This document shows, piece after piece, positions 28,242 to 63,392 of a DNA stretch of 64,000 nt; position 1 is the stretch's first letter; each line of letters begins with the position of its first letter. Made by a program: the position numbers and the translations under genes. The notes beneath the pieces were generated by a model, which was not told the origin of the DNA, did no database searches, and saw only the letters and a list, made by a program, of their open reading frames with translations. Origin of the DNA: Actinostola sp. cb2023 (lineage: Eukaryota > Cnidaria > Anthozoa > Actiniaria > Actinostolidae); contig JAUJYZ010000245.1 in assembly GCA_033675265.1 (NCBI GenBank), forward strand, positions 154,001 through 218,000. The letters are read 5' to 3'.

Positions 28242-28311
28242 GCGAGGTCCTTAATGTTCTTTCTCTCCTTCCACGAAAATACGGTGCATTCTAGAACTCA
28301 CGGAATCTGAC

Positions 28312-28420: not shown

Positions 28421-30938
28421 CTAAGTGCCTTTTAAAAATAAAGACACGTTTATCTCGGGTGAGTCGTTGCGATATTTGTGAAGTGCAACCATTTGCTTGA
28501 CGAATCTTTTCCTTTCTTCTACGTGTCTTGCCTTCATTTCTTGATAAACGAACGAAAATCTATCGTGGAATGATTCAGTTATTCTTTTCATATCTCTGAT
28601 TGTTTTTGCTCTGGGATTGAATTCTGCAATCGAAAAAAAGTATTTAATATGTTGTAATTAGTATTGATAACTCTGATATAGACATCTTTGTAGTGAAGCA
28701 GATTTGTACTGCTTTTTTTTGCATAATAATTAAGTGCGTTCGTGTGTGCGTTCGCGTGTGCGTTCATCCGTACTTTCGTGTGCGTGTGTGTGCATGCGTG
28801 CGTTAGTTCGTATGGGTGTGCATTCGCGTGTGTGTGCGTGCATTCGCGTGTGCGTGCGTGAATGCGTGTGTACCTATTATGACGAGGTCCAACGAAAACG
28901 CGCGCGCAACCGCGTCACAATGGCTAAAGCTCAAAAGCAGCCAAACATTATCCGTGAATCTTGCACGATGTGCGAATTCTAATCGTGGTAGTCCAATCTG
29001 CATCCAATTATTTTAGAGGTAAGAATTTTAATCTGCCCTATCGGTCTGTTCTCCATATTTCTAGCTTAAAGCTCAAAGCTGCATGTCTTCTTGTGTTTGA
29101 AAAGGGACAATTTTGTCCATTATTTACAAAGTAATTTTGAATCCGACTTGCGTTACTATAGTCTTGCGTTACTCAGTATAGGCTATTGTGTTGCGTTACT
29201 GTAGTCTTGCGTTACTATAGTCTTGCGCTACTACATGTATGGTCTTGCGTTACTATAGTTTTTACTATGGTCTTGCGTTACTATCAAGTTGCGTTACTAT
29301 CAGTAGTCTTGTGTACTATAGTCTTGCTATATAGCTGTAACTGGTTCTTTTGTCACAAAATCCCTTTACCCTATAGTAAATTCAGCAAGGTTACCTTGAG
29401 ATGGTGCCACAGTGAATTTTTTTCGTAACCCAAATACTTTGGCAACCAGTGCAATCATGGCGCATGTGAGTATAACTAATCCACCATACATCATCATGTC
29501 CTGATAAAACTGCGAGTCTGAGTCGACACCTGCTGACACCTGCTCTGCTGCGCTTTCTTTAGGAATCTAAAAGGAAATTTAGTGATGGTCAATTTCTTGA
29601 TGTCTGATCATTTGACGGCGGCCATGTTGGATGACATGGGAATTCGAACGTTGTTGGTAACCCAACGAAACCGGGTTGTTCTGTGTTCTACAAGGTCGGT
29701 TTTCGAGGAATAAACTTCACAGCAATGTTGGATGACAAACATTTAAGTAAAAAAAGGTGCTGATATTTAACATCCGCAACCCCTTCAGTCGAAACTGATC
29801 TCCCAGGAGGTGGACGGTGTGCCCTTTTACCCCCTCCCTCCATCAGTGCTCCGTTCTACGGGTATTTAAAGATGCACTGAGCTACAGGGATTGGAGGAAA
29901 GTCGAAACAAGGATGTGAGGTCACAAAGCTACCAAACATGGCGGCACCTCTTGAATCAATAAAAGAAATATCTCTGTTTCTAAGCCATCCTTGGTCACTT
30001 AAGGCAACGTGTCCTGTTCAAGTGTGCAATCTTTTCTTGGGGAACGAACTAATCGAGAACTGTGACGGCCTATATTTTCGAATGTATAACTTGTAAAATG
30101 TGTCTATTGCTCCATTTTGATATCAGAGGCTGCTAGCCACTGACTTGTTTTTCCGATGTTTTCTTAACATTTGACGTTTAAAATAACTGTGGTGACTATA
30201 CTGCATGCATGACACACGTACATCCCTTGGACTCACCTTTGGTTGTGACACTGTCGAGTCTATTATCTTAAAAACATTCTCTCGTTCAAAGTTAATATAG
30301 TCAATGAAGCACTTCTGGAGTTTCTTGGATCTTCCTCCGAGCGCAATCCCGTAGATGTTGTCATACTTCAACAGCTTGCTTATCTTGGCAGATCCCTGAG
30401 GTAGTTTGAATAAGTCTTGGTGATTAGCGGAGACGTAGAGATCGACGAGTATACCCTGCACTTCTTCAGATATCATTGCCCGACGAAGGTCTTCAAAGCT
30501 GTGGTATTGTCCATCTGCATTTATCCAAAAGATGAAAATATGTGCTTTAATTTGTATGAGTTCGTGTGGGAGACAAACTTATGTGCGTGACGTCACGCTA
30601 ACGGAATGTTCATGACGTCACGCTGATGGAATGTGTGTGACGTCACGCTAGCGAAATGTGCTTGACGTCACGCTAGCGGTTGACGTCACGCTAGCGGTTG
30701 ACGTCACGCTATCGGAATGTTCTTGACGTGACGCTAGCGGAATATGCGTGACGTTACGCTAGCGGAATGTGCGTGACGTCACGCTGATGGAATGTGTGGG
30801 ATGTCACGCTAATGGAATGTGCGCGTCCCCAATGCGCATGATTAATTCCTGCGTACGTTCTGAAGTCTTACCTGTGTTAACCAAGGCGTTGCGACGTATG
30901 CCTACTCGGTATTCAAAGGAATCAGTTATGGCGCCAAT
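28421..30938 (-). CDS. Channel gene, exons 21-24: S2 lobe, M4 and tail
   Basis: Four exons of the gene above. Exons 21-22 encode EYRVGIRRNALV, then YHSFEDLRRAM, GILVDLYV and YDNIYGIALGG. These parallel the second half of the iGluR ligand-binding domain, where a strand of this kind carries the acidic ligand residue (here Asp in GILVD) and YGIA-type sequence precedes M4. Exon 23 encodes MMMYGGLVILTCAMIALVA, the M4 helix, after an acidic linker. Exon 24 gives a basic, helical tail of 66 residues before the TAG at 28423-28421. Confidence 0.85.
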
Positions 30939-33900
30939 CTGTTGGACAACAGAAGACTTTGTCATTACAAAAAGAGAGACAAAATGTACTCGTGCTATGA
31001 AATTCCGTTGCCAATCTCTACCTTTGTCATGTAAAGGCTTTGTTTGTCGGCCATTACAGTCGTGACTACCAGATCGTTGCTTAAGTTGGCGGTTATTAAA
31101 GAGACCAATACGAACCCCATAAGGGCATTAACTATTGTCAGAACACGCGCGCAGACTCCTTTGGGGACGCAGTCGCCATAGCTGAAATATAATGAGACAA
31201 GAATGGTTTCTTTGAGATGCAGCGACATGAAGTATTGCTAGGTTGGTAAAAGCTGGTAAAAGCTGGTAAAAGCCCACGAATGTCTCATTAACTGTCCTCA
31301 AATGGTGGTCAAACACTGCCCTCCATGCTTCACCAAGCAGTGAGAAGTCTATTGAGAACTTGTTATTCAGCTAATAAAAATTCCTCACGAGACCGGAAAA
31401 GCGGGATGTCTTCTGAAATCTAGCAATAGTGAAGTATTGTACATAACTAACTGCTTTATTTAAAACCAATTAGTTTTATCTTACCCTACTGTAGTAATGG
31501 TAATGAATGCCAGCCAACATCCGTTGTATGCTCCCTTGATGAAAGATGCTGGAAAGTTTTCAGGATTGTGCTTCTTATCCTATCGAAATAAATGAAACTC
31601 GGCTCGAATTTCAGAAAATTTATTCTAGAACAAGCAGTGTATCGATCGAATAACCAACAGCGTAGGGTCTGGGGTAGGAGGAAGGAGTAGATGCGCTGAG
31701 GCAGGGGGAAGAACAAAGTAGGTAACGCCGTTCCCTCCCGGCCTTCTACGTCTTCTCCACCAACCTCTCGGTTCTCTACCAACTTCCTGGATCTCCACCA
31801 ATTACCTCTAGAATGTCTACCAACTTCCTGGATCTCCACCAACCTCCCAGATCCCCACCAACCTCCCGGTTCTCCATCAACCTCCCGGTTCTCCACCAAC
31901 CTCCCGGTTTTCCACCAACCTCCCGGTTTTCCACCAACCTCCCGGATCTCCACCAACCTCCCGGTTCTCCACCAACCTCCCGGTTCTCTACCATCCTCCC
32001 GGTTCTCTACCATCCTCCCGGTTCTCTACCAACCTCCCGGTTTTCCACCAACCTCCCGGATCTCCACCAACCTCCCTGTTCTCTACCATCCTCCCGGTTT
32101 TCCACCAACCTCCCGGTTCTCTACCAACACCTCCCGGGCTCCACCAACCTCCCGATTCTCTACCAACCTCCCAGATCTCCACCAACCTCCCAGATCTCCA
32201 CCAACCTCCCGGTTCTCCACCAACCTCCCGGTTCTCTACCAACCTCCCACAGTCTCCCCCAACCTCTCCGATCCCCACTCCTGCAGCGGCTATGCAGATT
32301 ATCAAATAGAAAGCCTCTACATCTTAGAGCTACTGACTTACCAATATCCATGTTAGTATGCCCACCAAGCACACCAACGTCAGCATGAGAGCAATCACAG
32401 TCCAGCTATTAAGGACTGCTCGTAGCAGGGCCCCAGATAAGACCGAATTAGTGAACCCGCTCGTGGTGATGAACGCTACCCCTGGTGACGTCACAATCCC
32501 CACATACGAGTTCTCACCATGCATAACCTTCCCATCAAAGCCGTTGACCGGAAATATCAAGTCTGTGTTTAGACCGTCGAACCCTAGGAATTCTGTTATG
32601 TTGGTCTTCTTTGCGCTGTTGCCTTGATCATCGCGGTGGTAATCGATGTGGGAACGCCCGTGGCCGTTATAGCAGTTACCACAGCACGAACTGATTACGG
32701 GCTCAAGGATTGAGGGAATCAAGCCTGACGTCACCGACGTGGATTCGTTGTGAGTGACGTAAGGGCCAATCACGTGCCAGGATGTACGGAGTTCCTTACT
32801 GCAAGGGCAGGTTTCTATAAGTGGAACGCATGATATCATTTTATGACCTAATATGGAGTGTCGATCTGCCTGCTACAAATCATGGATCTGCAAGGGTATA
32901 CTGACTTTTAACAGACTCTGGGGTAGCAAAGCATTACTGGGTAACTGCCTTATATGGATCAATGATTGTGGACAAATGGAAATGTCGTCGCTCTTCTACT
33001 GTCTTCTACTATTTGGTCAAGAGATTCCATATTTGGTCATGAAGTTCCAAATTTGGTCAAGAAATTCCATATTTGGTATAGATAGACGTAGCTTCCAGGC
33101 CTATTGACCGCTCAAAGAGACCTACCTGCATATACTGGATCACTAGTTACTCCATCCCCTTTTATGGTAAACCCAAGCACCTTAATCTGATACACAGCGA
33201 AATTATCGAGGTTTCGAATCACTATAGACAATACAGATGGTCCCACTGTTAGAACTACTACTTGATCTTCCACGATCTCCCCGGCCAACTGGACCTGTTT
33301 ATAAAAAACTCGGTAACCACGCAGAATTCCACGGGCATGGCCGTAAGGGATTGAAGACCAAGATACGGGGATTGAAGTATCACTGCTGAAGTTTGTTGCT
33401 GTGAGGTTTCCTGGCGCTTGACTGGGAACTGGAAAAGGTTTTGGAAATAAGTATTCCAGGTATAAAGGGTGCAATTCAGATGCATGAGAGAATTCCAGAC
33501 TGGCGGGCGTTATTGCCATTTTCTAAGCAAATAAGATACATCATGTACGCTCTAAACGGTTCACTTTCTCAATATTCACTGGAATAAGTTCCAAAGGCCA
33601 CATGGAAATGGTGAATATTGGGAATGGTTTTTAGTGAATCCATGCATGTTTTTTGGAACTTTTTGCAATGGTCCCTGTGGTCACATGGTCCCGTGCTCTT
33701 CGTTACTAGAACTACTTACCATCCTCGTCAGTGGTCCCCAGATGAACGCTACTTGTTGCACCATGTCCTACCGCCGTGTAACCCAGCATCCAGAACGAGT
33801 AGCTTGTAGAAGGAGCTAAGTTCGTCACTTCGTATGAAGCAGTGTTGGTTGGCAGAATTACGGTATTGTTTGGCCCTGATGCAAATTCATTGGTCTTTTT

Positions 33901-36900
33901 GTAGAATATCACCAGTCCCCGTAGGATACCATTGACGGAGGACATGGGGATTGGGGACCAGGACAGATTTAGACTTGAGAAACTTGTCGTTGTTCGTTGA
34001 AAACTGATATTTTGCGGCGCCATGTCTGGTGCTGTGAAACATGTCAAGAATTACTTTAGTTATTTCACTCTTCTATTTATGGGCTCCCTTTTCTTTTTGA
34101 GGCCGAGGGGGGACTTGGCCCTAAGGGGAAATTAGTTTCTAGTCTCTCTAGAGATCAGCATGCGGAGAGGGGGCTGTTAATTAGACTGACGAATATACAT
34201 AACTGCAAAATCCTTGGAGGTATTTGGGCGTTGAAGGATGACATGGGCCTGATTCAGACGTTTACATGAGCCTAATCAATTTCATCAAACAAGACCGTCC
34301 ATTGTTTCAAAGCCGATCCATTGTTTCCAATGTGGTACATGGAAAGTTCAACGAATGCATAGAACGAGTAGATAAAAGCCGAATGTTTGTATTATCCATC
34401 ACAAGTTTTCCTTGACGAGGACAAAACTTGTTCAATGTGGTACATGGAAAGCTCAACAAATGCATCGGGCCTAAAGCCGAATCTACACCAGCAAGTTTTC
34501 CTTGTCAAGGAAAACTTGTTCGTGTAGACGACAAAAACATCGCCAATTTTTCCTTGTCAAGGAAAACTTGTTCGTGTAGATGCGGCTTAAATAGTCTATA
34601 TAGATCACCTACTATCTTCGCTTGTCCTGACAATAATCGGTTGACTCTCGACACCCACATCCTTCGTGACCCCACCGACAGTCACGCTGTAGTTCGTGTA
34701 CTTCTCTAAACCTGTCAGCTCGATACTCAGCCGTGATGCTGATACCGTGGCTTGCAGCTGGGTGGTTACGTTGTTTCCATACTTGTCTAACTGGACGTAA
34801 CGTACAGCGTATGATGTCATTACGCCTTTGACGAGTACAGCAGGGATGATTTGCCACGTGATGTTCAGTGACGTCGAACTTGTGTTGAAACCGGACACTT
34901 TTGGAGGAGGAAACTGAGGAACTGAAAAGAGAGGAGATATGGTTTGAGAAAGATATGGAATGATGTATGCCTCGTGCTTTTTCTGCATTCCCTGGTCACC
35001 TCGCCTCTACACTTTGTGTTAGCCAATGTCTTCTTGTATTTTTCCAATACTGTATACTAGCCGGTTTTCTTGTTTTTTTTTGACCCCATCCTCGAAGACT
35101 GCTCCCTTTCGCGCGCGTCTATCTCTCCCTCGTGTTTCTTTGGAGGCTTCGGGTCTAATGCTGGCTGATTCGTAGATAAACTGGGCAGTTTGTTACTAAT
35201 TCATTAAATTCACTAGAAAGCTTTTATTAAGGTCTGTGGAAAATGTTGGAAGACTGGGTTCGAGAGTGGATTGGCTGAATTAGTCGCAAGTTTTTCGAGG
35301 TGTTTGTCCCGATTCCCTAGTCGTGTCACTTGAATGGATTCAACGTGGTTCTTTCTCCAGCACATTGGATAGGTATACAGTTTTTAAATTGGAGATAATA
35401 TTGTCAAAATTTAAGAGCTTTTATCTCATGGTGAGATACTCGATTTTTTTCCAACATTTTCCACAGGTCAGGTTTATTCAGGTGAGATGCATAAACGTTC
35501 CTATATGCATTTTCGACTCACCCTCTTGGTCCGTCCTGATATAAACAACAGGGCTCCAATGACCAATCCCTTTCAAAGTATAAGCAGCCATGATTACACT
35601 GTACACTGAATAAGGCACAAGTCCTTGAAAGGTGTAATTTCCTTGGGCCACTGGTACTTTAACTGTTACCGAAGCAGTTCCGACGGAGCGACGTTTACGT
35701 CGTACGTTGTTCGTCGTATTAATCCTTTTGTATGTTATATAGTAACCTAGTATATGACCGTTTGCACTAATTTGGGGGACTGGGTCCCATTCAATTAAGA
35801 TGCTTTGCTTGCTTGTGTTGAAGCCTCTTAGATTAACAGGCGGCACGGTTGGTACTAGAAAGATAATAAAAGATTAGAAGAAGAAAAAGAAGAAGAGGAG
35901 ACTGTTACAGAGTTAGAAGAAGAAGAAGAAAAAGAAAAAGAAGAAGGAGATTGTTACAGAGTTAGAAGAAGGAGAAGAAGAAAAAGCCACCAAGAAGAAG
36001 AAGAAGAAGAAGAAGAAAAAAGAAGAAGAAGCAGTTTGTTACAGAACGTCGTCTTGCAGATTCTACTGTAACCGCCATCTTGGATTGCAACCAAGCCTTT
36101 GCATGACGTCAAGCCTCGACTCCAGTCTCACTCTTCTGTTTGGCCGAATTGCAGTGAGCTTTGAAGATTCACAGAATATATATTATTTCATTGTAGTTAT
36201 TAATTCTTTCTTACCGTCTTCGTCTGTTTTGCAAAGTACGGACTGACTGGCCGGGCCAAAGCCTTCTCTGTTTAAAGCCTTGACGCTGATGTTATAAAAG
36301 GTAAATTTGTCTAATTCTTCTATTTCCAGTTTCGTCAAATTGCACGTGAAATAATCACGGGTTTCTGTTGTGTTGTTATCAGCTCGTTTGTAGGACAATA
36401 GATATGCTATCACAGATGTGTCGTTTAGTGGTTCCCAAGTAACGAACAAACTTGTCGAGCTCGTGTTCCACGCCATTAAAGACGCAGGAGCCTGTTTGAG
36501 AGCTAAAAGGGAACAAAAAAGCATCAGAGTTTTACTCACTTCAGTCCCGCATATTGATCGGAGATCTAAGCATTAATTTGGGGCGTCGGTCACCAACTTA
36601 TCAGTAATAGCTTTACGAGCTGAGGAGAGTTCAAAGATGTTGCCTCATTTTGCATTAGCACATTGTTGGACGTTTACGTAGCCTTGTTTAACCACATAAG
36701 TTAACCACATCATTGGGTACATAGAGCCCACGTCTCTATGTAAACTAAAAGAGGGGAACCGGCATTCATTCAGTTTATAAAACAATTTGGTGTGTCAACG
36801 GGATTTTTAGCGAACGAACATGAAGAAAAACCTTCGCTTTTCTTCATCAATGATGAAAATGCAATCAACTTTCTTTAAGCCGGACACTTTCGCGACCAAC

Positions 36901-39900
36901 TTTTGCTGTCTGGCTTAGCAAGGTTTCCGTCTCAGAGAGAGTGGATTTATAGTGAAAGAGTGTAGCAAAGTGTCCGTCTTAGAGAAGTGTCCATCTTAGA
37001 TAGATGTCCGTCTTAGGGAGGTGTCCGTCTTGGAGAGGTGTCCGTCTTAGAGAGGTGTTCGTCTTAGATAGGTGTCCGTCTTAGAGAGGTATCCGTCTTA
37101 GAGAGGTGTCCGTCTTAGAGAGGTGTCCGTCTTAGATAGGTGTCCATCTTAGAGAGTCCGTCTTAGGGAGGTTCGTCTTAGAGAGGTGTGTATCCGTCTT
37201 AGATAGGTGTCGTCAGGTGTCATCTTAAAGAGGTATCCGCCTTAGAGAGTGTTCGTCTTAGAGAGGTGTCCGTCTTAGAGAGGTGTCCATCTTGTCTTAG
37301 AGATTGTTTGTCTTGTCCGTCTTAGGGAGGTGTCCGTCTTAGAGAGGTGTCCGTCTTAGAGAGGTGTCCGTCTTAGAGAGGTGTCTGTCTTAGAGAGGTG
37401 TCCGTCTTAGAGAGGTGTCCATCTTAGAGAGGAATCCGCCTTAGAGAGTCTTAGATAGATGTCCGTCTTAGGGAGGTGTCCGTCTTAGAGAGGTGTCCGT
37501 CTTAGAGAGGTGTCTGTCTTAGAGAGGTGTCCGCCTAGAGAGAGTTGACTGTATTTCAAGTGACATACGTCCTCTTCTTGTTTGAGCAAACACCATGTAA
37601 GAGAAACCGTCGCCATATTTGTTGAAAGCCAATAATTCGAAAGTGTACTGAGTAAATTCCTTGAGATCATCAAACAACGTCGTTCTTCGGTTAGCGCCCA
37701 GAGTTCGCTTAACTGTGGCTGAGCTCGGTAACAATTCAGATAGAGTGAATTTGTAACCCAGGATCTCGCCGTGTCTGTAGGACTTGTCTACTTCTCCCCA
37801 CTCTGCTCGAATGGTTGTAGAGCTTGTGTTGTAAGCTTTGATTGAAGATGGTGGCTTCCCAGGGGCTAGAGGAAGTAAGAGTAACATTGTTAGAATCCCT
37901 TATGGAAACGAAATAACACGTGTATACTGGAAGAGGAACTGATCATCGGATCCTGCATAGGTAGCCTCATTTTCATGCTAAGGCCAGGTTACATTTCAAT
38001 ATGGCTGCCTCATCTGTGAAGGTTTTTACTAACTAACCTTCTCCATTGGTTCTTACGAGTATACTGCTGGCGAGTCCAACGCCTACTTTTGTAAAACCCG
38101 CCACAGAGATGTTATACACCGTGTAAGGCCATAGGTTGTCGATGTTAGTAGAGCTGACATTAACACAGAAATAGTGGTTTCTGAATGCGAAGACAGGGTC
38201 ATTATCAGCCCAGTTTAAGAAGACGCGATATCCCAGTAAAACACCTGAAACCCTGTAATCTTGAGGGTTGATTAAGCTCCATTCGATGTAGATGCTGTTA
38301 CCCGTAAGGTTCATTCCGAAGACGTTGGACGGTGCAATCCAAGGAACTGTGGAAACCAACGTAAATCACAGATAAACCAAAGGACTTCACTGTATTGTAA
38401 AACATGTCGGATGTCGGCCATTTTGATGACATCATGGCGGCCATGTTGATGGCGACCATGTTGATGGCGGCCATGTTGGTGCCCGATAACAAAGCATTCC
38501 TCATTAGCTACTCTTGTTTTTACCACCAACATGGCCGCTGCGCGTGTTTGTACTCGACATCTCCAGGGATTGATTGCAATCCAGCAATAGCGTGAAATAG
38601 CATACTTACCAGATTCGTCCGTTCTGGCAAACACCTTAGGGCTAAACGGACCATACGTGACAGCAGTAAATCCAAGTATTTCTAAGCTATAATTGTGGTA
38701 ACTCTTGAGGTTGTGAAATGGCTGCTGTCTTGCGATAGAGCATACCATGCGACTCTCAACGATTTGGTTGGCTACGTCATAAAGCAAGAGCATAAATCCC
38801 CGGATGATGCCTTTGCGTTGTGATTGGGAGATGTCAGACCACGTGACATTCAAACTGTTATGGCTTGTTTTAAAGAAACTAATGTTGGCTGGGAAACCAG
38901 TAGGAGCTGTTGGAATAAGAGTGACGTTATCTGATCGAAGTTTTGATGGATTAACCTGCAACCCTTCGACTTTTATCCACTATTCCTTCATTTTCTTCCT
39001 TCCTCACTTCTTCGAGCTTCCTTCTCTCCCTCGCTTCCTTCTCTGCCTCGCTTCCTTCTCTCCCTCGCTTCCTTCTCTCCCTCGCTTCCTTCCCACTCTC
39101 GCTTCCTTCCTTCTTTCCTTTGTTGATTCCTTTCTTCCTTCCTTTCCATTTTCTCCCTTCCTCACTTCCTTCTCTCCCTCGCTTCCTTCCCACTCTCGCT
39201 TCCTTCCTTCTTTCCTTTGTTGATTCCTTTCTTCCTTCCTTTCCTTTTTCTCCCTTCTTCGCTTCCTTCTCTCCCTCGCTTCCTTCCCACTCTCGCTTCC
39301 TTCCTTCTTTCTTTTGTTGATTCCTTTCTTCCTTCCTTTCCTTTTTCTCCCTTCTTCGCTTCCTTTCCTCCCTCACTTCCTTCCATACTTCGCTTCCTTC
39401 TCTCCCTCACTTCCTTCCCACTCTCGCTTCCTTCCTTCATTCCTTTCTTGATTCGTTCCTTTCTTCCTTCCGTCCGTCTATTTCTTCATTTTGTAATTAG
39501 TATGATGCTCCTAATGCCTTTATTATTATTTATTATTGTAATTACTTCCTATACTCTTCTCCTATACTTACATCCTTCCCCTGTAATGGCATTGAACACA
39601 ACAGGCAGACCTGGTCCCACGCTAGTCACACCACTAACACTAATAGTGTACACCGTATAGACTTGAAGACCAGTAATATTATATGAACTCTGGTTAACAC
39701 CAACAGTTTTGTTCCCAGTCCCCCAGTGGACAAAGTAGCCCACAGGTATCCCATTCCATCCTTCAGTGGGGATTGTATGGTTCCACTTCACGTTGATAGT
39801 CGTTTGGTTTATGCTGCTCGCAGCGATGATGGTCGGGGCGATGCTTGGAACTATAGTAACGAAAACGAATCAACTTATTGATTACTGGACCATGGCGCAC

Positions 39901-48900: not shown

Positions 48901-51900
48901 ACCAGTAACTACCATCACACGTTTACCAGGATACGGGGGTTTACCTATAGGGTATCACCAGACTATACCCGTACCTATACCAGTAACTACGATCACCCGT
49001 TTACCAGGATACGGAGGTTTACCTATAGGGTATCACCAGACTATACCCGTACCTATACCAGTAACTACCATCACACGTTTACCAGGATACGGGGGTTTAC
49101 CTATAGGTATCACCAGACTATACCCGTACCTATACCAGTAACTACCACATTACCCATTTACCAGGATACGGGGTTTACCTATATGGTATCACCAGACTAT
49201 ACCCGTACCTATACCAGTATATCACCCGTTTACCAGGATACGGGTTTACCTTTATCCAGTAACTACCATCAGACCATACGGAGGTTTACCTATAGGGTAT
49301 CACCAGACTATACCCGTACCTATACCAGTAACTACCATCACACGTTTACCAGGATACGGGGGTTTACCTATAGGGTATCACCAGACTATACCCGTACCTA
49401 TACCAGTAACTACCATCACCCGTTTACCAGGATACGGGGGTTTACCTATAGGGTATCACCAGACTATACCCGTACCTATACCAGTAACTACCATCACCCG
49501 TTTACCAGGATACGGGGGTTTACCTATAGGGTATCACCAGACTATACCCGTACCTATACCAGTAACTACCATCACCCGTTTACCAGGATACGGGGGTTTA
49601 CCTATAGGGTATCACCAGACTATACCCGTACCTATACCAGTAACTACCATCACCCGTTTACCAGGATACGGGGGTTTACCTATAGGGTATCACCAGACTA
49701 TACCCGTACCTATACCAGTAACTACCATCACCCCGTTTACCAGGATACGGGGGTTTACCTATAGGGTATCACCAGACTATACCCGTACCTATACCAGTAA
49801 CTACCATCACCCGTTTACCAGGATACGGGGGTTTGCCTATAGGGTATCACCAGACTATACCCGTACCTATACCAGTAACTACCATCACCCGTTTACCAGG
49901 ATACGGGGGTTTACCTATAGGGTATTACCAGACTATACCCGTACCTATACCAGTAACTACCATCACCCGTTTACCAGGATACGGGGGTTTACCTATAGGG
50001 TATCACCAGACTATACCCGTACCTATACCAGTAACTACCATCACCCGTTTACCAGGATACGGGGGTTTACCTATAGGGTATCACCAGACTATACCCGTAC
50101 CTATACAAGTAACTACCACATTACCCATTTACCAGGATACGGAGGTTTACCTATAGGGTATCACCAGACGATACCCGTACCTATACAAGTAACTACCACA
50201 TTACCCATTTACCAGGATACGGAGGTTTACCTATAGGGTATCACCAGACTATACCCGTACCTATACCAGTAACTACCATCACACGTTTACCAGGATACAG
50301 GGGTTTACCTATAGGGTATCACCAGACTATACCCGTACCTATACCAGTAACTACCATCACCCGTTTACCAGGATACGGGGGTTTACCTATAGGGTATCAC
50401 CAGACTATACCCGTACCTATACAAGTAACTACCACATTACCCATTTACCAGGATACGGGGGTTTACCTATAGGGTATCACCAGACTATACCCGTACCTAT
50501 ACCAGTAACTACCATCACCCGTTTACTAGGATACGGGGGTTTACCTATAGGGTATCACCAGACTATACTCGTACCTATACCAGTAACTACCATCACACGT
50601 TTACCAGGATACGGGGGTTTACCTATAGGGTATCACCAGACTATACCCGTACCTATACCAGTAACTACCATCACCCGTTTACCAGGATACGGGGGTTTAC
50701 CTATAGGGTATCACCAGACTATACCCGTACCTATACCAGTAACTACCATCACCCGTTTACCAGGATACGGAGGTTTACCTATAGGGTATCACCAGACTAT
50801 ACCCGTACCTATACCAGTAACTACCATCACACGTTTACCAGGATACGGGGGTTTACCTATTTGGTATCACCAGACTATACCCGTACCTATACAAGTAACT
50901 ACCACATTACCCATTTACCAGGATACGGGGGTTTACCTATATGGTATCACCAGACTATACCCGTACCTATACAAGTAACTACCACATTACCCATTTACCA
51001 GGATACGGGGGTTTACCTATATGGTATCACCAGACTATACCCGTACCTATACCAGTTACTGCCATCACCCGTTTACCAGGATACGGAGGTTTACCTATAG
51101 GGTATCACCAGACTATACCCGTACCTATACCAGTAACTACCATCACACGTTTACCAGGATACGGGGGTTTACCTATAGGGTATCACCAGACTATACCCGT
51201 ACCTATACAAGTAACTACCACATTACCCATTTACCAGGATACGGGGGTTTACCTATAGGGTATCACCAGACTATACCCGTACCTATACCAGTAACTACCA
51301 TCACACGTTTACCAGGATACGGGGGTTTACCTATAGGGTATCACCAGACTATACCCGTACCTATACCAGTAACTACCATCACCCGTTTACCAGGATACGG
51401 GGGTTTACCTATAGGGTATCACCAGACTATACCCGTACCTATACCAGTAACTACCATTACCCGTTTACCAGGATACAGGGGTTTACCTATAGGGTATCAC
51501 CAGACTATACCCGTACCTATACCAGTAACTACCATCACCCGTTTACCAGGATACGGAGGTTTACCTATAGGGTATCACCAGACTATACCCGTACCTATAC
51601 CAGTAACTACCATCACACGTTTACCAGGATACGGGGGTTTACCTATAGGGTATCACCAGACTATACCCGTACCTATACCAGTAACTACCACATTACCCAT
51701 TTACCAGGATACGGGGGTTTACCTATATGGTATCACCAGACTATACCCGTACCTATACCAGTAACTACCATCACCCGTTTACCAGGATACAGGGGTATCT
51801 TTATAGGTCTATATTGTATTTACCTGTTGTCATTCCATAAGGTCCAAACAGCTCTGTTCCATCCTTAGTGTTGTCTTCCCCTACTTTAAGCAACATGGCC

Positions 51901-54900
51901 ACCGTAAGACCACCTGAGCAGCTGAAGGGATCATAAAGACATGTTCCACTACTTGGAGTAAGTTTTAAATCCACGCGTGTACTCGCGTCTCGAATTGAAA
52001 TGCCGTTGTTCACAGGCGAAGGAGTCGACGTTACTTGTGCGCCAGCAGTCCATATGGTATTTCCTGTTTTGTGGTGTTTTATTGAGGCCAGCGGTATTTG
52101 GTCAAAATCCCAGAAGTGATTTGCGGTCATAAATAGAGCTACGACGTCTGTTGCAAAAAAAGAAGCGAAAAGTTTGTCAAGTAGGCACTGACTAAAAAGC
52201 ACTACCTAAAAAAAGATGGCGTATCGTTATATTTTACCCAGTAATCCTTTGCGTGCATAAACCACTACCGACTAAGAAACTTTAGAACAGACAGTCAAAA
52301 AGTTTGTAGCTGTTAACTGTTTTATTTATGTGAACGTGTTAGACAGGGTGTAATGTGAGTAGTACTGGGTTCGCAAAGGATTATGGGAACTGTACAGCAG
52401 CCATCTTTTTCTGTAAAGTGGATGAAATCCATCATAGATAGACTTTATTTAAATATCGTCATTATCATTAGCTATCGTTATTATCATTAGCTATCGTCAT
52501 TATCATTAGCTATCGTCATTATCATTAGCTATCGTTATTATCATTAGCTATCGTCATTATCATTAGCTATCGTCAATATCATTAGCTATCGTCATTATCA
52601 TTAGCTATCGTCATTATCATTAGCTATCGTCAATATCATTAGCTATCGTCATTATCATTAGCTATCGTCATTATCATTAGCTATCGTCATTATCATTAGC
52701 TATCGTTATTATCATTAGCTATCGTTATTATCATTAGCTATCGTCATTATCATTAGCTATCGTCAATATCATTAGCTATCGTCAATATCATTAGCTATCG
52801 TCATTATCATTAGCTATCGTCATTATCATTAGCTATCGTCATTATCATTAGCTATCGTTATTATCATTAGCTATCGTCATTATCATTAGCTATCGTCATT
52901 ATCATTAGCTATCGTCATTATCATTAGCTATCGTTATTATCATTAGCTATCGTTATTATCATTAGCTATCGTCATTATCATTAGCTATCGTCATTATCAT
53001 TAGCTATCGTCATTATCATTAGCTATCGTTATTATCATTAGCTATCGTCATTATCATTAGCTATCGTCATTATCATTAGCTATCGTTATTATCATTAGCT
53101 ATCGTTATTATCATTAGCTATCGTTATTATCATTAGCTATCGTTATTATCATTAGCTATCGTTATTATCATTAGCTATCGTCATTATCATTAGCTATCGT
53201 CATTATCATTAGCTATCGTTATTATCATTAGCTATCGTTATTATCATTAGCTATCGTTATTATCATTAGCTATCGTTATTATCATTAGCTATCGTTATTA
53301 TCATTAGCTATCGTCATTATCATTAGCTATCGTCATTATCATAGCTATCGTCATTATCATTAGCTATCGTCATTATCATTAGCTATCGTTATTATCATTA
53401 GCTATCGTCATTATCATTAGCTATCGTCATTATCATTAGCTATCGTTATTATCATTAGCTATCGTTATTATCATTAGCTATCGTCAATATCATTAGCTAT
53501 CGTTATTATCATTAGCTATCGTTATTATCATTAGCCATCGTCATTATCATTAGCTATCGTTATTATCAGTAGCTATCGTTATTATCATTAGCTATCGTTA
53601 TTATCATTAGCTATCGTTATTATCATTAGCTATCGTTATTATCATTAGCTATCGTTATTATCATTAGCTATCGTCATTATCATTAGCTATCGTTATTATC
53701 ATTAGTATTCTATTACATAACACTCTCATTCATGCTCAGCTGAATTAAGGTATGGGATAAAATATTGATCAGCGGTCTAAGCCAAGCTGGAACAGCTTGG
53801 CTTAGGTGGTCAGGAGAATACGACCCACGCGAATCTATTGGGCGGGTGGGTGGGCCGTTCATCTGACCACTGTTCCGCTGGAACTGAGCAAGAAGGGAGT
53901 GTCCTGCCTTTGATGCCGTATATATTGCCACTGTGCACGTGCACACGTGCACGTGGGTGTTAACGAGGCATTATAATACCGTATTTCATCTTTGCATCTC
54001 ATTAGAGTGTTATGAATAGTATTCTATTACATAACACTCTCATTCATGCTCAGCTGAATTAAGGTATGGGATAAAATATTGATCAGCCGCCCTTGCACCT
54101 GTCTGTTACAACTTTGTTGCTGTGAGTTCCACAAACCCTCAATTCTCATATCAGTTCCTTCTCCCAAACCTTATTTCACTAGAAATAATACCCCAATCCT
54201 CATAACTCCCCAATCCTCACCCAAAACTAAAACCACAAATATCGGGGTAAAAATGCCTTAGCTGCATGTATACTTTATGATACTCATCCTGGCTGGCGAG
54301 TTTACGCCAGATTGGCATTAGGAAACACACACACAAAGCGTTTCAGTTCATTGGTATCCTGTCAGGGATTAGTAACATGACAGAGGTATCAGTCAGGGGG
54401 TGCCCCACGGATACCCCCTTCGGCTGATCTGAGGTTTTTCTTTTCACTTCCAAATGTTTTCACCTCCACCCCTCAAAAGAAGAAAGAAAACGAAGAGACG
54501 GGAAAATAATAATATAACTAGATGCTCTACTAGCGTGAAGTCGGGCTTCTAACTGATATGTAGCCTATTTCAGAACTAAATATAGATATCTTAGTGCGAT
54601 TAAAACAGCGTTTGGTCGCTCGTTGCGTGACTCGATAGAACATGTTTTCTTTGCAATTTCAGTACTGCGATTTCACAAACTCAGCGAATCATGAATGACA
54701 ATGACATAGATTAATTGGTACCATAAATATATCCATACAAATTATGCAAATACCGTATACATAAACTAGGCATCGCAAAGTGATTAACAATGTTTAGAAT
54801 TAAGTGTAAATATGGGTTTACCTCTGCTCGCATTGCTTTTATTTTCAGTTCTTCACTGCGTGTATCAACTCACTTTATTCTAAGGATCTCTAAACCCTTT

Positions 54901-57900: not shown

Positions 57901-60369
57901 TACAAATCAATCACTGGCAATTTCATTCCTGTTCACACTTAACTCCGATTTGCAATCATTCCTCGAACCTCCGCCAAGAAAATCATTTTACAAATCAAAC
58001 ACTGGCAATTTCATTCCTGTTCACACAGAACTCATTTGCAATCATTCCTCGAACCTCCGCCGAGAAAGTCATTTTACAAATCAATCACTGTCAATTCCAT
58101 GCCTGTTCACACTTAACTCATTTGCAATCATTCCTCAAACCTCCGCCGAGAAAGTCATTTTACAAATCAATCACTGTCAATTCCATGCCTGTTCACACTT
58201 AACTCCGATTTGAAATCATTCCTCGAACCTCCGCCGAGAAAATCATTTTACAAATCAAACACTGGCAATTTCATTCCTGTTCACACAGAACTCATTTGCA
58301 ATCATTCCTCGAACCTCCGCCGAGAAAGTCATTTTACAAATCAATCACTGTCAATTCCATGCCTGTTCACACTTAACTCATTTGCAATCATTCCTCGAAC
58401 TTCCGCCGAGAAAGTCATTTTACAAATCAAACACTGGCAATTTCATTCCTGTTCACACAGAACTCATTTGCAATCATTCCTCGAACCTCCGCCGAGAAAG
58501 TCATTTTACAAATCAATCACTGTCAATTCCATGCCTGTTCACACAGAACTCATTTGCAATCATTCCTCGAACCTCCGCCGAGAAAATCATTTTACAAATC
58601 AAACACTGGAACTTGGTTGTTGGTGTTCGGCGGCTGTTGCTGTTCAGGCTGTTCAGCTTGCGGGTCTTGTTGAGCTGGCAATTCAGGGAATTGTACATCA
58701 TAACCTTCGGCAATCATCAGATATAAATTTGTGCGGTATTCATCAAAGGACCCACGTTGCTGCTGACTTGAAATGAATCATAAAACGTAAAACTTTATAC
58801 CTCAAGTTCTCTTTCTTCTACCAGAGGAGCAGGTTCTATCGGCCTTCGTACTTCGGCCATGAATTCCTGAGAATGATTCGCGTGGGTCGTATCAAGAAAA
58901 AACAAAGAAGAGTTCATCTGACCACTGTTCCGCTGGAACTGAGCAAGAAGGGAGTGTCCTGCCTTTGATGCCGTATATATTGCCACTGTGCACGTGCACA
59001 CGTGCACGTGGGTGTTAACGAGGCATTATAATACCGTATTTCATCTTTGCATCTCATTAGAGTGTTATGAATAGCTATCGTTATTATCATTAGCTATCGT
59101 CATTATCATTAGCTATCGTTATTATCATTAGCTATCGTTATTATCATTAGCTATCGTCATTATCATTAGCTATCGTTATTATCATTAGCTATCGTTATTA
59201 TCATTAGCTATCGTCATTATCATTAGCTAGCTATCGTCATTATCATTAGCTATCGTCATTATCATTAGCTATCATGCACTGGCAACAGTTATCGTCAACA
59301 TCTTATTGATTATCATCGTTGTAAAATGCGAATAATTAATATTAAAATTTAAAAACATTCTTACCATTGTATGTGACTGCTGCCGATTTGGTGGACAATA
59401 TCTGCGAAATATAAACCGAGAGTTAGTGTTACCATTCCTTCCATAAGCTGTTTCCCACTTTAATTATTACTGACATTTTATGGAAATTTTTTTGTTTGAA
59501 TTTAAAAATACAATACAATAATACAAAAAAAGATGGCGATCAGTACATTTTACCCAGCAATCCTTTGCGTGCACGAACCACTATACCTTGTACTATGAAA
59601 CATTAGAACAGACTGTTTTGAAAACATCAACATTTGTCAGTGTGATCAGTCGAAGCGGTTACCTGCTTTAGATATGTGAACGTGTCAGATAGTTTGGCAG
59701 ATGTGAGTAGGACTGATTTAGGTTCGCAAAGGATTATGGTACAATGTACAGCCGCCATCTTGTCTGTACACTTATTCAGTCACTGGTAAAGTGTTATCCG
59801 GCCAATCCCTTATTTGGTATCAATGCGCCATATTTGGTAACTGGCTGAAATTTTCCTCAATGGGCTTGTGTCACCTGTCATGTGACTTTTTAAAATTTCA
59901 CCGAAGGCAAACGAAAATATCATAACTTGAAAGAGCATACTAAAATTAGTAAAAGTTGAAAATGTCAAAAGAATCAATCAAATAAGACAAAAGTTAAAGG
60001 CTTTCAAAGTTTCCCGCTTTGACAAAGATTTGTATGGGTTTTTCGCTTGGAGGGCAAGCGTTGCCCTCAACATCATTTCCATACAAAAAAGGCAAAGTTT
60101 GAATGCCTGTAACTATTGCCTTATTTACTTACTTCTCTTCAAACTTTCCACTTTTACTAACTTTGGTATGCTCTTTCCAGTTATGGTATTTTCGTTTGCC
60201 TTCGGTGAAAATTTAAAAAGTCACGTGACAGGTGACACAAGCTCATTGTCAACAGTTTCCCAAAATGCCCAAAACTAGACTGAAAGTTGGACATGTTGTC
60301 AGTTTAACTTACCGACACTAAGCCGATGTAAAAGACCAATAGAACGCCTTTTGCTATTGGCTGTTTCAT
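28421..60369 (-). CDS. Adhesion-type glutamate-receptor-like K+ channel (LamG-SEA-FN3x10-GluR core)
   Basis: 24 exons: 60369-60313, 59401-59365, 52147-51824, 44654-44313, 43482-43361, 42616-42564, 41863-41697, 40769-40458, 39850-39572, 38906-38610, 38346-38038, 37865-37569, 36502-36215, 35854-35522, 34921-34613, 34031-33720, 33428-33126, 32847-32342, 31579-31485, 31181-31022, 30938-30872, 30514-30237, 29566-29395 and 28623-28421. Total 5622 nt, 1873 residues; every junction is GT-AG and phases agree. Order: signal peptide (1-19), laminin-G-like (about 32-253), SEA (about 254-350), ten FN3 (368-1380), S1 (1381-1525), M1 (1527-1549), pore with TTVGYGD (1578-1584), M3 (1592-1614), S2 (1615-1770), M4 (1773-1796) and a cytoplasmic tail of about 77. 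A GluR0/AvGluR1-type filter predicts K+ selectivity. Ligand unknown. Confidence 0.87.
29567..30236. other. Intron between S2 and M4 exons
   Basis: No repeat array or exon was recognised in this 670-bp intron. Confidence 0.35.
30582..30832. repeat. Array of about ten CRE-containing units (TGACGTCACGCTAGCGG)
   Basis: Units of about 25 bp (two shortened to 18) start TGACGTCACGCTAGCGG and end AATGTGCG. Seven keep the perfect palindrome TGACGTCA; the others read TGACGTGA, TGACGTTA and GGATGTCA. The array lies in the intron between the two S2 exons of the channel gene. Each perfect unit is a full CREB/ATF site by sequence. Confidence 0.85.
31022..31579 (-). CDS. Channel gene, exons 19-20: pore loop, filter and M3
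   Basis: Exon 19 (31579-31485) encodes a pore-helix pattern, NFPASFIKGAYNGCWLAFIT, and ends inside the filter: ACT ACA GTA GG|. Exon 20 (31181-31022) begins C TAT GGC GAC, completing TTVGYGD. A hydrophobic M3, VLTIVNALMGFVLVSLITAN, follows and ends in TANLS, the counterpart of the TANLAAF gating motif of iGluRs. Every residue of the K+ channel signature is present. The intron between them is only 303 bp and holds a short GGTAAAAGCT triplet repeat. Confidence 0.92.
31741..32270. repeat. 19-bp minisatellite (CCACCAACCTCCCGGTTCT), about 28 copies
   Basis: Tandem units of 19 bp with small variants, in the intron between the M1 and pore exons. Proline-rich or Gly/Trp-rich ORFs on both strands are artefacts of the repeat. 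Confidence 0.9.
32342..32847 (-). CDS. Channel gene, exon 18: S1-like region and M1
   Basis: One exon of 169 residues. The pattern RTSWHVIGPYVTHN and a Cys-rich SSCCGNC recall the start of an iGluR S1 lobe. The later ENSYVGIVTSPGVAFIT lies where iGluRs have the strand leading to the ligand arginine. I cannot point to that arginine with confidence, so the ligand may differ from glutamate. The exon ends in M1 (SWTVIALMLTLVCLVGILTW), with donor TTG|GTAAGT in phase 0. Confidence 0.75.
33126..40769 (-). CDS. Channel gene, exons 8-17: ten fibronectin type III domains
   Basis: Ten exons of 279-333 nt, each one domain, each starting and ending in phase 1. From the N terminus: 40769-40458, 39850-39572, 38906-38610, 38346-38038, 37865-37569, 36502-36215, 35854-35522, 34921-34613, 34031-33720 and 33428-33126. 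Most show an N-terminal AP or VP, a W in strand B, a GxxxGY motif in strand C, and an L..YT.Y pattern in strand F followed by G..G..S. Domain 1 is the most divergent. Most end in a T-D-E-D-G-like linker. Many Asn-X-Ser/Thr sites fit an extracellular position. Symmetric 1-1 exons allow domain duplication without breaking the frame. Confidence 0.92.
34032..34612. repeat. Intron with short foldback repeats
   Basis: Near 34320-34590, TTTCCTTGTCAAGGAAAAC and GTTCGTGTAGA segments recur in direct and inverted orientation, and a GTGGTACATGGAAAG motif occurs twice. It is probably a decayed MITE. No exon was recognised. Confidence 0.5.
35866..36035. repeat. (GAA)n-rich purine tract
   Basis: Imperfect AAGAAG repeats with three GTTACAGA interruptions, in the intron between FN3 exons 13 and 14. 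Long polypurine DNA can form triplexes. Confidence 0.85.
36503..36904. other. Intron between FN3-5 and FN3-6 exons, left part
   Basis: No coding or repeat feature was recognised before the satellite. Confidence 0.35.
36905..37555. repeat. 17-bp satellite (GTGTCCGTCTTAGAGAG)
   Basis: Roughly 35 units of 17 bp with decayed and shortened members. At the right end the array runs into GAGAGAGTTGACTGTAT, the complement of an ACAGTCAACTCTCTC transposon-like end. The array therefore appears to be an amplified transposon terminus. It lies just 3' of the FN3-5 exon on the minus strand. Confidence 0.8.
38985..39475. repeat. Polypyrimidine repeat (CTTCCTTC/TCTCCCTCG)
   Basis: Higher-order direct repeats of about 97 bp (for example TGATTCCTTTCTTCCTTCC recurring near 39124, 39221 and 39318). 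It lies in the intron between FN3-2 and FN3-3. ORFs across it are artefacts. Confidence 0.85.
40091..40413. mobile_element. Foldback element between FN3-1 and FN3-2 exons
   Basis: TTTCGTAGTTTCCCAGAATG near 40103 is repeated inverted near 40400, with arms of about 60 bp containing TTCATGATTCTGCGCGTGCA. Confidence 0.65.
40770..41176. other. Intron between SEA and FN3-1 exons, left part
   Basis: It contains GCGCGCTCTGATTGG near 40841, the core motif of the tandem repeat at 43590-43960, as a single copy. Otherwise AT-rich with no feature. Confidence 0.4.
41177..41545. mobile_element. Foldback MITE with TTGGCCATTACAAAAAAGAG ends
   Basis: Inverted arms of about 35 bp also share GCAGGGGACTGGG. It lies in the intron between exons 7 and 8 of the channel gene. 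Confidence 0.7.
41697..43482 (-). CDS. Channel gene, exons 5-7: SEA domain
   Basis: Exons 43482-43361, 42616-42564 and 41863-41697. The translated segment runs TTLDLSLNLYGIPWDPDY, then SSLYNVTKDLLVEY, FIETLVDSFSQ and GGLIVAAHIKVIF. This order fits a SEA domain (strand, helix, strand, helix, strand), a membrane-proximal fold of mucins and adhesion receptors that often self-cleaves. The usual cleavage site GSVVV is not obvious. The 53-nt exon is needed to join the phases (0 in, 2 out). The acceptor of exon 5, TTGAAAG|AT, is the weakest splice site in the gene. Confidence 0.75.
42059..42456. mobile_element. Nested hairpin transposon with CACAGGCAGCCCAA ends and 7-bp duplication
   Basis: The outer ends match those of 10726-11034. 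GTAGAGA is duplicated at 42052-42058 and 42457-42463. Inside is a second palindrome (about 42121-42357) with GGGTTTCCTGTGGTAGAG, GTTGGGCTCCCTGTGCG and GCGGGAC..GTCCCGC steps. The inner module recurs in part at 45020-45122. Confidence 0.75.
42617..43360. repeat. Intron with inverted repeat of CAACGTTGCGCGCAACG motif
   Basis: Near 42770-42905 the motif CAACGTTGCGCGCAACGGTT and CTTCTGCAAC segments recur inverted around CTCAATCC. A cysteine- and valine-rich plus-strand ORF here has no support as a gene. Confidence 0.5.
43590..43960. repeat. Tandem repeat, about 59-bp units (ACGCGCGCTCTGATTGGC)
   Basis: Seven units, each with GTCAGAAATATA, CTTCATTTAAA and ACGCGCGCTCTGATTGGCTA. Each unit has one inverted CCAAT box (ATTGG). 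It lies in the intron between the laminin-G and SEA exons. Confidence 0.85.
44313..60369 (-). CDS. Channel gene, exons 1-4: signal peptide and laminin-G-like domain
   Basis: Exon 1 (60369-60313) encodes MKQPIAKGVLLVFYIGLVS, a typical signal peptide. Exon 2 (59401-59365) adds 12 residues. Exons 3 and 4 (52147-51824, 44654-44313), both phase 1-1, encode one concanavalin/laminin-G-like fold: GGLTVAMLLKV in the first half, then WYYFVFTWDP, LKVYLDNAYI and ILAIWDSVVSWTQLNILW in the second. The 7-kb intron between the halves is almost wholly satellite DNA. The domain may bind glycans or matrix ligands; that is inference. Confidence 0.78.
44655..45794. other. Left part of the intron splitting the LamG domain
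   Basis: At 45020-45122 is a partial copy of the inner module of the 42059-42456 element (CACAGGGAGCCCAACATAAT to CTCTACCACAGGAAACCC). Nothing else was recognised. Confidence 0.5.
45795..51795. repeat. 6-kb satellite of 78/80-bp units
   Basis: About 76 tandem units built on GGTATCACCAGACTATACCC, then GTACCTATACCAGTAACTAC, and TTTACCAGGATACGGG. Two classes alternate: an 80-bp unit with ACATTACCCAT and a 78-bp unit with ATCACCCGT. A one-base-deleted marker (CCCGTACTATACC) recurs at 46444 and 47313, 869 bp apart, which shows higher-order duplication. Long ORFs here come from the 78-bp period. Confidence 0.95.
52211..52411. mobile_element. Foldback element with AAAGATGGC and AATCCTTTGCG ends, copy 1
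   Basis: The left end AAAGATGGCG..CAGTAATCCTTTGCG is repeated inverted at the right end (CGCAAAGGATTATGG..GCCATCTTT). A second copy is at 59529-59762. Confidence 0.65.
52455..53705. repeat. 19-bp satellite (TCATTATCATTAGCTATCG), about 66 copies
   Basis: Very regular 19-bp units with mainly C/T and T/A substitutions (CGTCATT, CGTTATT, CGTCAAT). The same satellite continues at 59072-59275, so a 5.3-kb block (53706-59073) appears to have inserted into it. Confidence 0.95.
53706..54018. mobile_element. Short internally deleted transposon copy
   Basis: It begins CTATTACATAACACTCTC and ends GAGTGTTATGAATAG, near inverted copies of one another. Its right 163 bp match 58909-59073 and its left 67 bp match 54021-54087. 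It is therefore a deletion derivative of the adjacent 5-kb element, in tandem with it. Confidence 0.7.
55384..55851 (+). pseudogene. hAT-type transposase remnant
   Basis: The last part reads as the dimerisation tail of hAT-like transposases: a SSCETERANS stretch, MRSIMG, LALTHVHYDMPIDI and FARKHPRRLTLVDML. It is interrupted by an in-frame TAG (55723-55725). Upstream parts fit only with frame changes. It is non-functional. Confidence 0.6.
56930..58612. repeat. Tandem array of 106-bp then about 87-bp units
   Basis: Early units (to about 57290) contain CTGAACCAACCCGACGAGAA. Later ones contain ATTCCTCGAACCTCCGCCGA and CATTTTACAAATCAA, with two alternating subtypes (AATTTCATTCC and AATTCCATGCC). 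The open frames across the array are artefacts of the period. Confidence 0.9.
59072..59275. repeat. Continuation of the 19-bp satellite
   Basis: About ten units of the same TATCATTAGCTATCGT satellite as at 52455-53705, on the other side of the 5-kb element. Confidence 0.9.
59529..59762. mobile_element. Foldback element with AAAGATGGC and AATCCTTTGCG ends, copy 2
   Basis: Matches 52211-52411 at both ends and in part of the interior (GATATGTGAACGTGTCAGAT). It lies in intron 1 of the channel gene. Confidence 0.65.
59858..60248. mobile_element. Foldback MITE, about 390 bp, in channel intron 1
   Basis: Inverted arms of about 68 bp start CAATGxGCTTGTGTCACCTG and include CACCGAAGGCAAACGAAAAT. The centre has GGAGGGCAAGCGTTGCCCTC, similar in layout to the 3928-4219 element. 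Confidence 0.75.
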
Positions 60370-63098: not shown

Positions 63099-63392
63099 AT
63101 GACATCGCTAATCGAGTCAACTCTCGCACGTATCCAGAACCACAAGGGAGTCCATGGTGTTATTGTAGTCAACTCAGAAGGCATTCCAATCAGGTCTGAC
63201 CTGGACAACACCACCACCCAGACCTACGCCAGCTCGTGCAAGCAACTCGTGACGTTAGCACAAAGCACCGTCAGGGACATTGACCCACGAAATGATCTGT
63301 CAATATTGAGAGTGCGGTCGAAGAAGTACGAAATAATGATCGCTCCTTGTGATGGCTATGTACTTATTGTCATACAGAACGACTCAGAGTGA
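63099..63392 (+). CDS. DYNLRB1: Dynein light chain roadblock-type
   Basis: A small light chain of cytoplasmic dynein, 97 residues, that dimerises and binds the dynein intermediate chain. The family pattern is clear: [19 protein letters not shown], a DNTTTQTYA stretch, [37 protein letters not shown]. The length equals the usual 96. The coding region has no intron. A pyrimidine tract ending CAG at 63096 just before the ATG suggests an intron may lie in the 5' UTR. All core residues are intact, so it is likely functional. Confidence 0.93.

Follow-up and report, generated by a model that had tools for sequence, protein, structure and literature searches.

Gene model and domain order

The window, the whole stretch of DNA analysed here, comprises 64,000 nucleotides of the sea anemone Actinostola sp. 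cb2023 (assembly GCA_033675265.1, contig JAUJYZ010000245.1, positions 154,001 to 218,000 of the forward strand); a vent anemone Actinostola sp. was collected at 2,971 m depth (PMC10803348, available part). On the minus strand, from 60369 to 28421, lies a gene whose predicted protein carries a potassium-type pore filter within a channel part of the order S1-M1-pore-M3-S2-M4 and, ahead of it, a LamG-like domain and a run of fibronectin type III (FN3) domains (Table 1). This domain order is contained in one gene model, and the same join of adhesion and channel parts, with the filter motif, is present in predicted proteins of other cnidarians. Predicted structures support the view that the filter sits inside a glutamate-receptor-like S1-S2 clamshell fused to the FN3 ectodomain.

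The closed frame of 1862 codons in 24 exons was predicted from reading frames and splice sites; all introns of the gene are GT-AG and the exon phases are consistent. An initial annotation of the window had described 24 minus-strand exons with consistent phases and a closed frame, the above channel order, TTVGYGD in the pore and an M3 that ends in TANLS, all of which recur in the rebuilt model. Its length of 1873 codons is corrected here: the acceptor at 32847 lies 33 bases upstream of the exon 18 acceptor at 32814 and adds 11 residues. We prefer 32814 because these residues are absent from P0001 and 12 other family proteins, where the preceding domain directly joins the [EKRD][TK]CxC start of S1.

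P0001 (hypothetical protein QZH41_013442, partial [Actinostola sp. cb2023]) is a product of the same gene. It matches model residues 312-1738 except for exon 8, which it skips, and has 8 extra residues at one acceptor; exon 7 is present, and exons 1-6 lie outside it. The N-terminus of an Acropora protein (P0018) backs exons 1, 3 and 4, and an Actinia protein (P0002) backs exons 23-24, being collinear over the last FN3 domains (393/789 aligned residues identical) and the entire channel with M4 and tail. Exons 2, 5 and 6 are based on frame and splice sites.

Table 1. Exons of the channel gene and other features of the window (positions in the window)
Feature	Position	Strand	Evidence
Exon 1: start codon, then a hydrophobic stretch that is likely a signal peptide	60313..60369	-	hydrophobic 19-mer, residues 5-23
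Exon 2	59365..59401	-	GT-AG, phase 0 to 1
Exon 3: LamG-like domain, first half	51824..52147	-	N-terminal alignment to P0018 (Acropora) and P0019 (Dendronephthya); Laminin_G_3 below cut-off
Exon 4: LamG-like domain, second half	44313..44654	-	aligns with P0018
Exons 5-7, before the FN3 run	41697..43482 (43361-43482, 42564-42616, 41697-41863)	-	some relatives have SEA matches here; none in this protein
Exon 8: FN3-like domain 1, weak	40458..40769	-	Interfer-bind match
Exons 9-17: nine FN3 domains, one per exon, phase 1-1	33126..39850 (span)	-	Pfam fn3
Exons 9-12 (FN3)	39572-39850, 38610-38906, 38038-38346, 37569-37865	-	
Exons 13-17 (FN3)	36215-36502, 35522-35854, 34613-34921, 33720-34031, 33126-33428	-	
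Exon 18: S1 clamshell half and M1 (M1 32342-32407)	32342..32814	-	
Exon 19: pore helix and first half of filter (TTVG)	31485..31579	-	
Exon 20: second half of filter (YGD) and M3 (31079-31150) ending TANLS	31022..31181	-	Ion_trans_2 over pore region
Exon 21: S2 start	30872..30938	-	
Exon 22: remaining S2, conserved acidic residue in LVDLY (30435-30449)	30237..30514	-	
Exon 23: M4 (29435-29491)	29395..29566	-	aligned with P0002
Exon 24: basic tail, putatively cytoplasmic, and stop	28421..28623	-	residues 1786-1862 match P0002, E 1.5e-9
Large tandem arrays in introns of the channel gene	45818-51796, 52454-53705, 56922-58609, 31753-32248		largest: 78 bases x 75.6 copies, in the intron that separates LamG exons 3 and 4
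Open frame of 281 residues, Disintegrin match	27405-28250	-	36.6 bits, cut-off 35.1
Three CaKB-like (BK-channel beta subunit) frames	3090-3488, 14938-15471, 9999-10418	-, +, +	29.0 (cut-off 25.1), 20.8 and 16.4 bits, the last two below cut-off
Roadblock/LC7 dynein light chain	63090-63392	+	76.6 bits

Adhesion-type ectodomain

Nine FN3 stretches of the window protein pass with Pfam fn3 (E 2.8e-83). The remaining one of the ten FN3 domains initially annotated, encoded by exon 8, resembles FN3 weakly (Interfer-bind, 19.1 bits, cut-off 21). The N-terminal LamG assignment is likewise weak: Laminin_G_3 reaches 20.2 bits (cut-off 27.6) when residues 1-253 are scanned alone and gives no match when residues 1-1380 are scanned together, but residues 10-245 align with the Acropora N-terminus (E 1e-5) and residues 7-116 with that of the octocoral Dendronephthya (E 2e-5; both E-values refer to a 13-protein set), and the LamG_3 domains of these two copies exceed the cut-off. 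The SEA domain of the initial annotation, which would fall in exons 5-7, is rejected, as the stretch matches no Pfam family and its hhalign probability is 0.9% when it is compared with six stretches of relatives that are SEA or SEA-like. Four relatives (P0015, P0016, P0017 and P0019) have SEA matches before the FN3 run, all below cut-off, and P0004 has three over cut-off among its FN3 domains.

Residues 1-1380 gave no Pfam match (E up to 1) to a bilobed amino-terminal domain. With the LamG-like and FN3 domains in its place, this agrees with the proposal that an adhesion array replaces that domain. The Pfam scan matched no immunoglobulin (Ig) domain in the window protein. The open frame with a Disintegrin match, which follows the channel gene immediately on its downstream side, has a hydrophobic stretch close to its C-terminal end.

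Pore and clamshell

The filter TTVGYGD of the window protein is divided by an intron (31495-31485 and 31181-31172) and belongs to the type TXVGYG; the pore region scores 43.0 bits with Ion_trans_2 (cut-off 22.5). The best 60 of 512 matches of the family profile to solved structures are all K+ channels, aligned over the pore. With hhalign, the pore reaches 98.8% (E 1e-16) against five K+ channels and 85.5% (E 5.7e-6) against three ionotropic glutamate receptors (iGluRs) of the same genome aligned over M1-M3 alone, a comparison that favours the K+ channels in that these had been picked by the family profile. The filter hardly varies across about 30 genes. Eight of the 12 aligned family members have the pore-helix motif WW[AS]F, and the window and Actinia proteins carry WLAF.

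A bilobed S1-S2 clamshell interrupted by M1-pore-M3 is seen in models predicted by AlphaFold2 from the 12-row alignment, so the structure prediction that the initial annotation had named as a possible refutation leaves its reading standing. Foldseek finds the predicted fold to be that of iGluRs. The clamshell models fit amino-acid-binding cores closely, with GluR0 cores best or tied best (VIA ranks within 1 Z counted as ties) but not clearly nearer than those of other binding proteins. The clamshell rests on predicted structure because S1 and S2 have no significant sequence match to solved structures. Lig_chan, the profile once suggested as a check, reaches 22.5 bits in the window protein, below its cut-off of 30.8, and exceeds it in two of nine relatives scanned whole (P0015, 43.0; P0019, 31.1). 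Plain K+ channels reach up to 24.1 bits (five of eight controls, themselves products of the family's own profile search, match at E up to 1), and we therefore reject Lig_chan as proof for the window protein.

The ligand pocket departs from that of ordinary receptors on its S1 side. At the position of the S1 arginine, taken as the seventh after the first proline (glycine in P0004) of the FP motif, all 12 aligned members lack arginine: the window and Actinia proteins have lysine, seven have glutamine, and methionine, valine and aspartate occur once each. A thirteenth protein, P0021, has valine. In a joint alignment with three iGluRs of the genome, all with arginine, none of the 12 members has it under two of three modes, the third misplacing S1. 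The acidic residue of S2 is kept in 14/14 rows representing 13 genes. In ordinary receptors this residue holds the ligand amine. With the S1 arginine missing but the S2 acidic residue retained, glutamate in its ordinary pose is probably not the ligand. At the M3 end, where iGluRs have SYTANLAA, the window protein has ITANLSND, and TANL occurs in two of the 12 members (Actinostola and Actinia); TANLS is thus unsupported as a mark of the family and rejected as proof.

Relatives in other cnidarians

Searches with words from the channel part yielded 13 distinct family proteins, P0001 included. Ten of them come from eight cnidarian species (Actinostola and Actinia with two each; Oculina, Stylophora, Nematostella, Acropora, Dendronephthya and Pocillopora), so that the join of adhesion and channel parts, which the initial annotation suggested seeking in other cnidarian genomes, is found well beyond this gene. 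P0021 (Pocillopora) has no pore stretch and is not among the rows of the 12-row alignment. The channel part stays constant while the ectodomain changes among these proteins: FN3 alone (within the extent of the predicted protein), SEA + FN3, TSP1 + FN3, LamG + TSP1 + FN3, or CUB + Ig in P0020, where Ig is the domain directly before S1.

A tree of 13 genes, whose deepest forks have weak support, contains three well-supported groups of two or three copies that unite anemones with corals. Because anemone and coral copies group together, several family lineages are likely older than the anemone-coral split. A channel-only profile search (265-843 amino acids), which scored the 7997 candidates sharing most words, gave eight matches, all generic K+ channels by Pfam, with no GluR0-like protein among them. 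Names given by NCBI to family proteins include 'sidekick', 'uncharacterized', 'hypothetical' and 'unnamed'. This fits an overlooked family, and the findings suggest that several 'sidekick' entries are ion channels.

Copies in the Actinostola genome

We searched the Actinostola assembly (424,152,321 bases) with the channel of P0015 and obtained 101 exon matches. Near-complete S1-M1 exons occur at 19 places on 14 contigs (E up to 2.1e-12), exon 18 of the window included; with two further loci in which S1 is split, the count is the window plus 18 near-complete loci plus two, or at least 21 loci. Outside it are a weak twentieth near-complete S1 match (C1285, E 1.4e-4), partial matches (C1081, C752, C420, C538, C584:314433 and others) and weaker exon matches that include long open frames, probably ordinary K+ channels. 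Two contigs, C1090 (L034) and C790 (L035), have identical channel exons and may be two haplotypes in the assembly; given these and the close pair L028/L029, there are about 19 distinct genes. Five of the 21 loci form a run of family channel genes on contig C584, at about 288-430 kb.

An exon ending TT[VLI]G is present in all 21 loci, and the next exon, found in 19, starts with YGD. The intron cuts the filter at the same place in all 19 loci with both exons (among L022-L041 and the window, 31485/31181); a further locus, L021, has the filter within one exon. From exon translations read by eye, arginine stands in the S1 register in one of the 21 loci (L037), and the S2 acidic residue is present in 19, those where the S2 exon was found. 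Upstream of S1, eight loci with an S1 exon and 1.5 kb of flank were scanned for ectodomains: an FN3 profile of the window's own domains matches in five (L010, L014, L017, L018 and L020) and gives no match within the flank in L015, L016 and L019, and a TSP1 profile matches in none of the eight. Apart from these, L004 (C734:290615-291475) is an iGluR-like match with five internal stop codons, possibly a pseudogene or a gene with unrecognised introns.

Among the other features of the window, the CaKB-like frames are possibly a small cluster of K+-channel helper genes.

Comparison with known systems

GluR0 places its K+ pore upside down, with the loop entering from the cytoplasm, and we know of no adhesion arm in it. 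The window protein resembles GluR0 in a predicted S1-S2 clamshell around a TXVGYG pore, with GluR0 cores best or tied best among the structural matches noted above, and differs from it in having M4 (about residues 1764-1785) and a long animal ectodomain and in lacking the S1 arginine. GluR0 has two transmembrane segments and a TXVGYG pore, and AvGluR1 has TXVGYG in an ordinary eukaryotic iGluR architecture (PMC12332018, available part). AvGluR1 is also an animal receptor of the iGluR plan (PMC12332018 and PMC3483616, both in part), but, compared by description, its usual architecture contrasts with the LamG-like and FN3 domains found here. Three ordinary iGluRs of the same genome (L002, L005 and L008) share the S1-M1-P-M3 order and the predicted fold, whereas they retain both YTANL and the S1 arginine and lack a GYG filter. 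Sidekick, a single-pass immunoglobulin-superfamily protein (PMC7479261, in part), has a similar FN3 run; the window protein, however, has no Ig match and has M1, M3, M4 and a pore loop instead of one plain transmembrane helix.

Proposed working and alternatives

We take the arm and S1 to be extracellular because the protein begins with a signal-peptide-like stretch and 36 of its 38 sequons lie before M1. M1 would then run inward, the pore loop would enter from the cytoplasm, giving a K+ pore upside down, M3 would run outward, S2 would lie outside and M4 would lead back in. The channel would be a tetramer in which the clamshell, by closing on a small molecule, would pull M3 open; K+ would leave and the cell would hyperpolarise. 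The arm would position the tetramer at contacts and might in addition load the clamshell. We infer K+ selectivity, the tetramer, a ligand, gating by clamshell closure and adhesion, and with them a hyperpolarising, contact- or ligand-gated role. Taken together, the chances seem about even that the protein is an adhesion-type receptor channel, with a LamG-like and FN3 arm, a predicted clamshell and a K+-filter pore, in which a ligand gates K+ flow where cells meet one another or the matrix.

Several points weigh against this ligand-gated K+ channel: (i) whole-chain Foldseek TM-scores are low (0.36-0.52, root-mean-square deviation 7.7-14.7); (ii) the joined S1+S2 profile finds nothing significant among solved structures, its best match (E 0.025) being an unrelated protein and two binding proteins (E 0.11 and 0.53) aligning over S2; (iii) given the missing S1 arginine, the clamshell might bind no amino acid at all; (iv) the LamG-like domain scores below its cut-off, SEA finds no support in the window and the adhesion role of the arm is read from domain type; (v) a further hydrophobic stretch in exon 7 (residues 321-339) could alter the topology if it crosses the membrane; and (vi) the filter motif by itself does not guarantee K+ selectivity, as the example of AvGluR1 shows (PMC3483616, available part).

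The third of these points leads to an alternative that we consider unlikely, though the strongest of its kind, in which the clamshell no longer binds a ligand and serves as a mechanical or allosteric link, so that the K+ pore responds directly to tension on the FN3 arm or to a partner bound there. An arginine missing from every aligned member and an ectodomain that varies in type over a constant channel part would suit it; retention of the S2 acidic residue, in the alignment and in the genome loci alike, suggests instead a pocket under selection, and the close fit of the clamshell models to amino-acid-binding cores also speaks against it. Somewhat less probable still is a pore that is not K+-selective in practice, the channel depolarising the cell like a glutamate-receptor-like cation channel. 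AvGluR1, which the initial annotation called K+-selective, has the filter motif yet is reported to be Na+-permeable (PMC3483616, available part), and WLAF replaces the WW[AS]F of most members in the window and Actinia proteins. Opposed to this are the near-invariant K+-channel filter, the solved-structure matches and the hhalign comparison, with its pre-picked K+ set.

It appears improbable that the protein is an adhesion receptor that does not conduct and whose channel is a relic. The M3 gate motif is indeed not conserved, but the filter and its flanks are conserved over about 30 genes, and the Actinostola and Actinia proteins resemble each other more in S1 (70/112) and M1-M3 (61/101) than in the FN3 part (393/789), equally in S2 (66/132) and less in M4 with the tail (34/98). 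The initial annotation itself named separate genes for the FN3 and channel exons as a refuting possibility, and the relatives, too, are mostly predicted proteins; however, the same join recurs in the ten proteins of eight species and in three further proteins, P0001 crosses it within this gene and the phases fit, so a wrong fusion of two neighbouring genes is very improbable indeed.

The ligand-gated K+ channel at contacts may be extended to a broader reading, which we offer tentatively and with more doubt than assurance: a large unrecognised cnidarian family in which adhesion receptors are K+ channels. A variable arm (FN3, LamG, TSP1, Ig or CUB) would drive a clamshell and an upside-down pore, and contact with a cell, matrix or settling surface, together with a small-molecule cue, would silence the cell without a second messenger.

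Novelty and meaning

Glutamate receptors are thought to derive from a K+-channel pore and a glutamate-binding sensor, with GluR0 and AvGluR1 named as links (PMC12332018, available part). The component parts of the present protein are known, and we found its combination, and the spread of that combination in cnidarians, in no paper. By title and start of abstract, no description of the architecture was recognised among the matches listed from the open-licence literature, outside which lie most subscription papers and bioRxiv, so absence is not shown; 'fibronectin' occurs nowhere in the available part of PMC12226733.

A K+-type filter, a predicted clamshell and adhesion domains are united in about 20 loci of one genome, and in anemones and corals. 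Through such a protein, a small molecule detected where the cell touches another cell or the matrix would likely dampen the cell's activity. Should the family conduct K+, animals close to the root of nervous-system evolution would have a receptor type that inhibits directly, and contact and electrical signalling might be linked at the molecular level.
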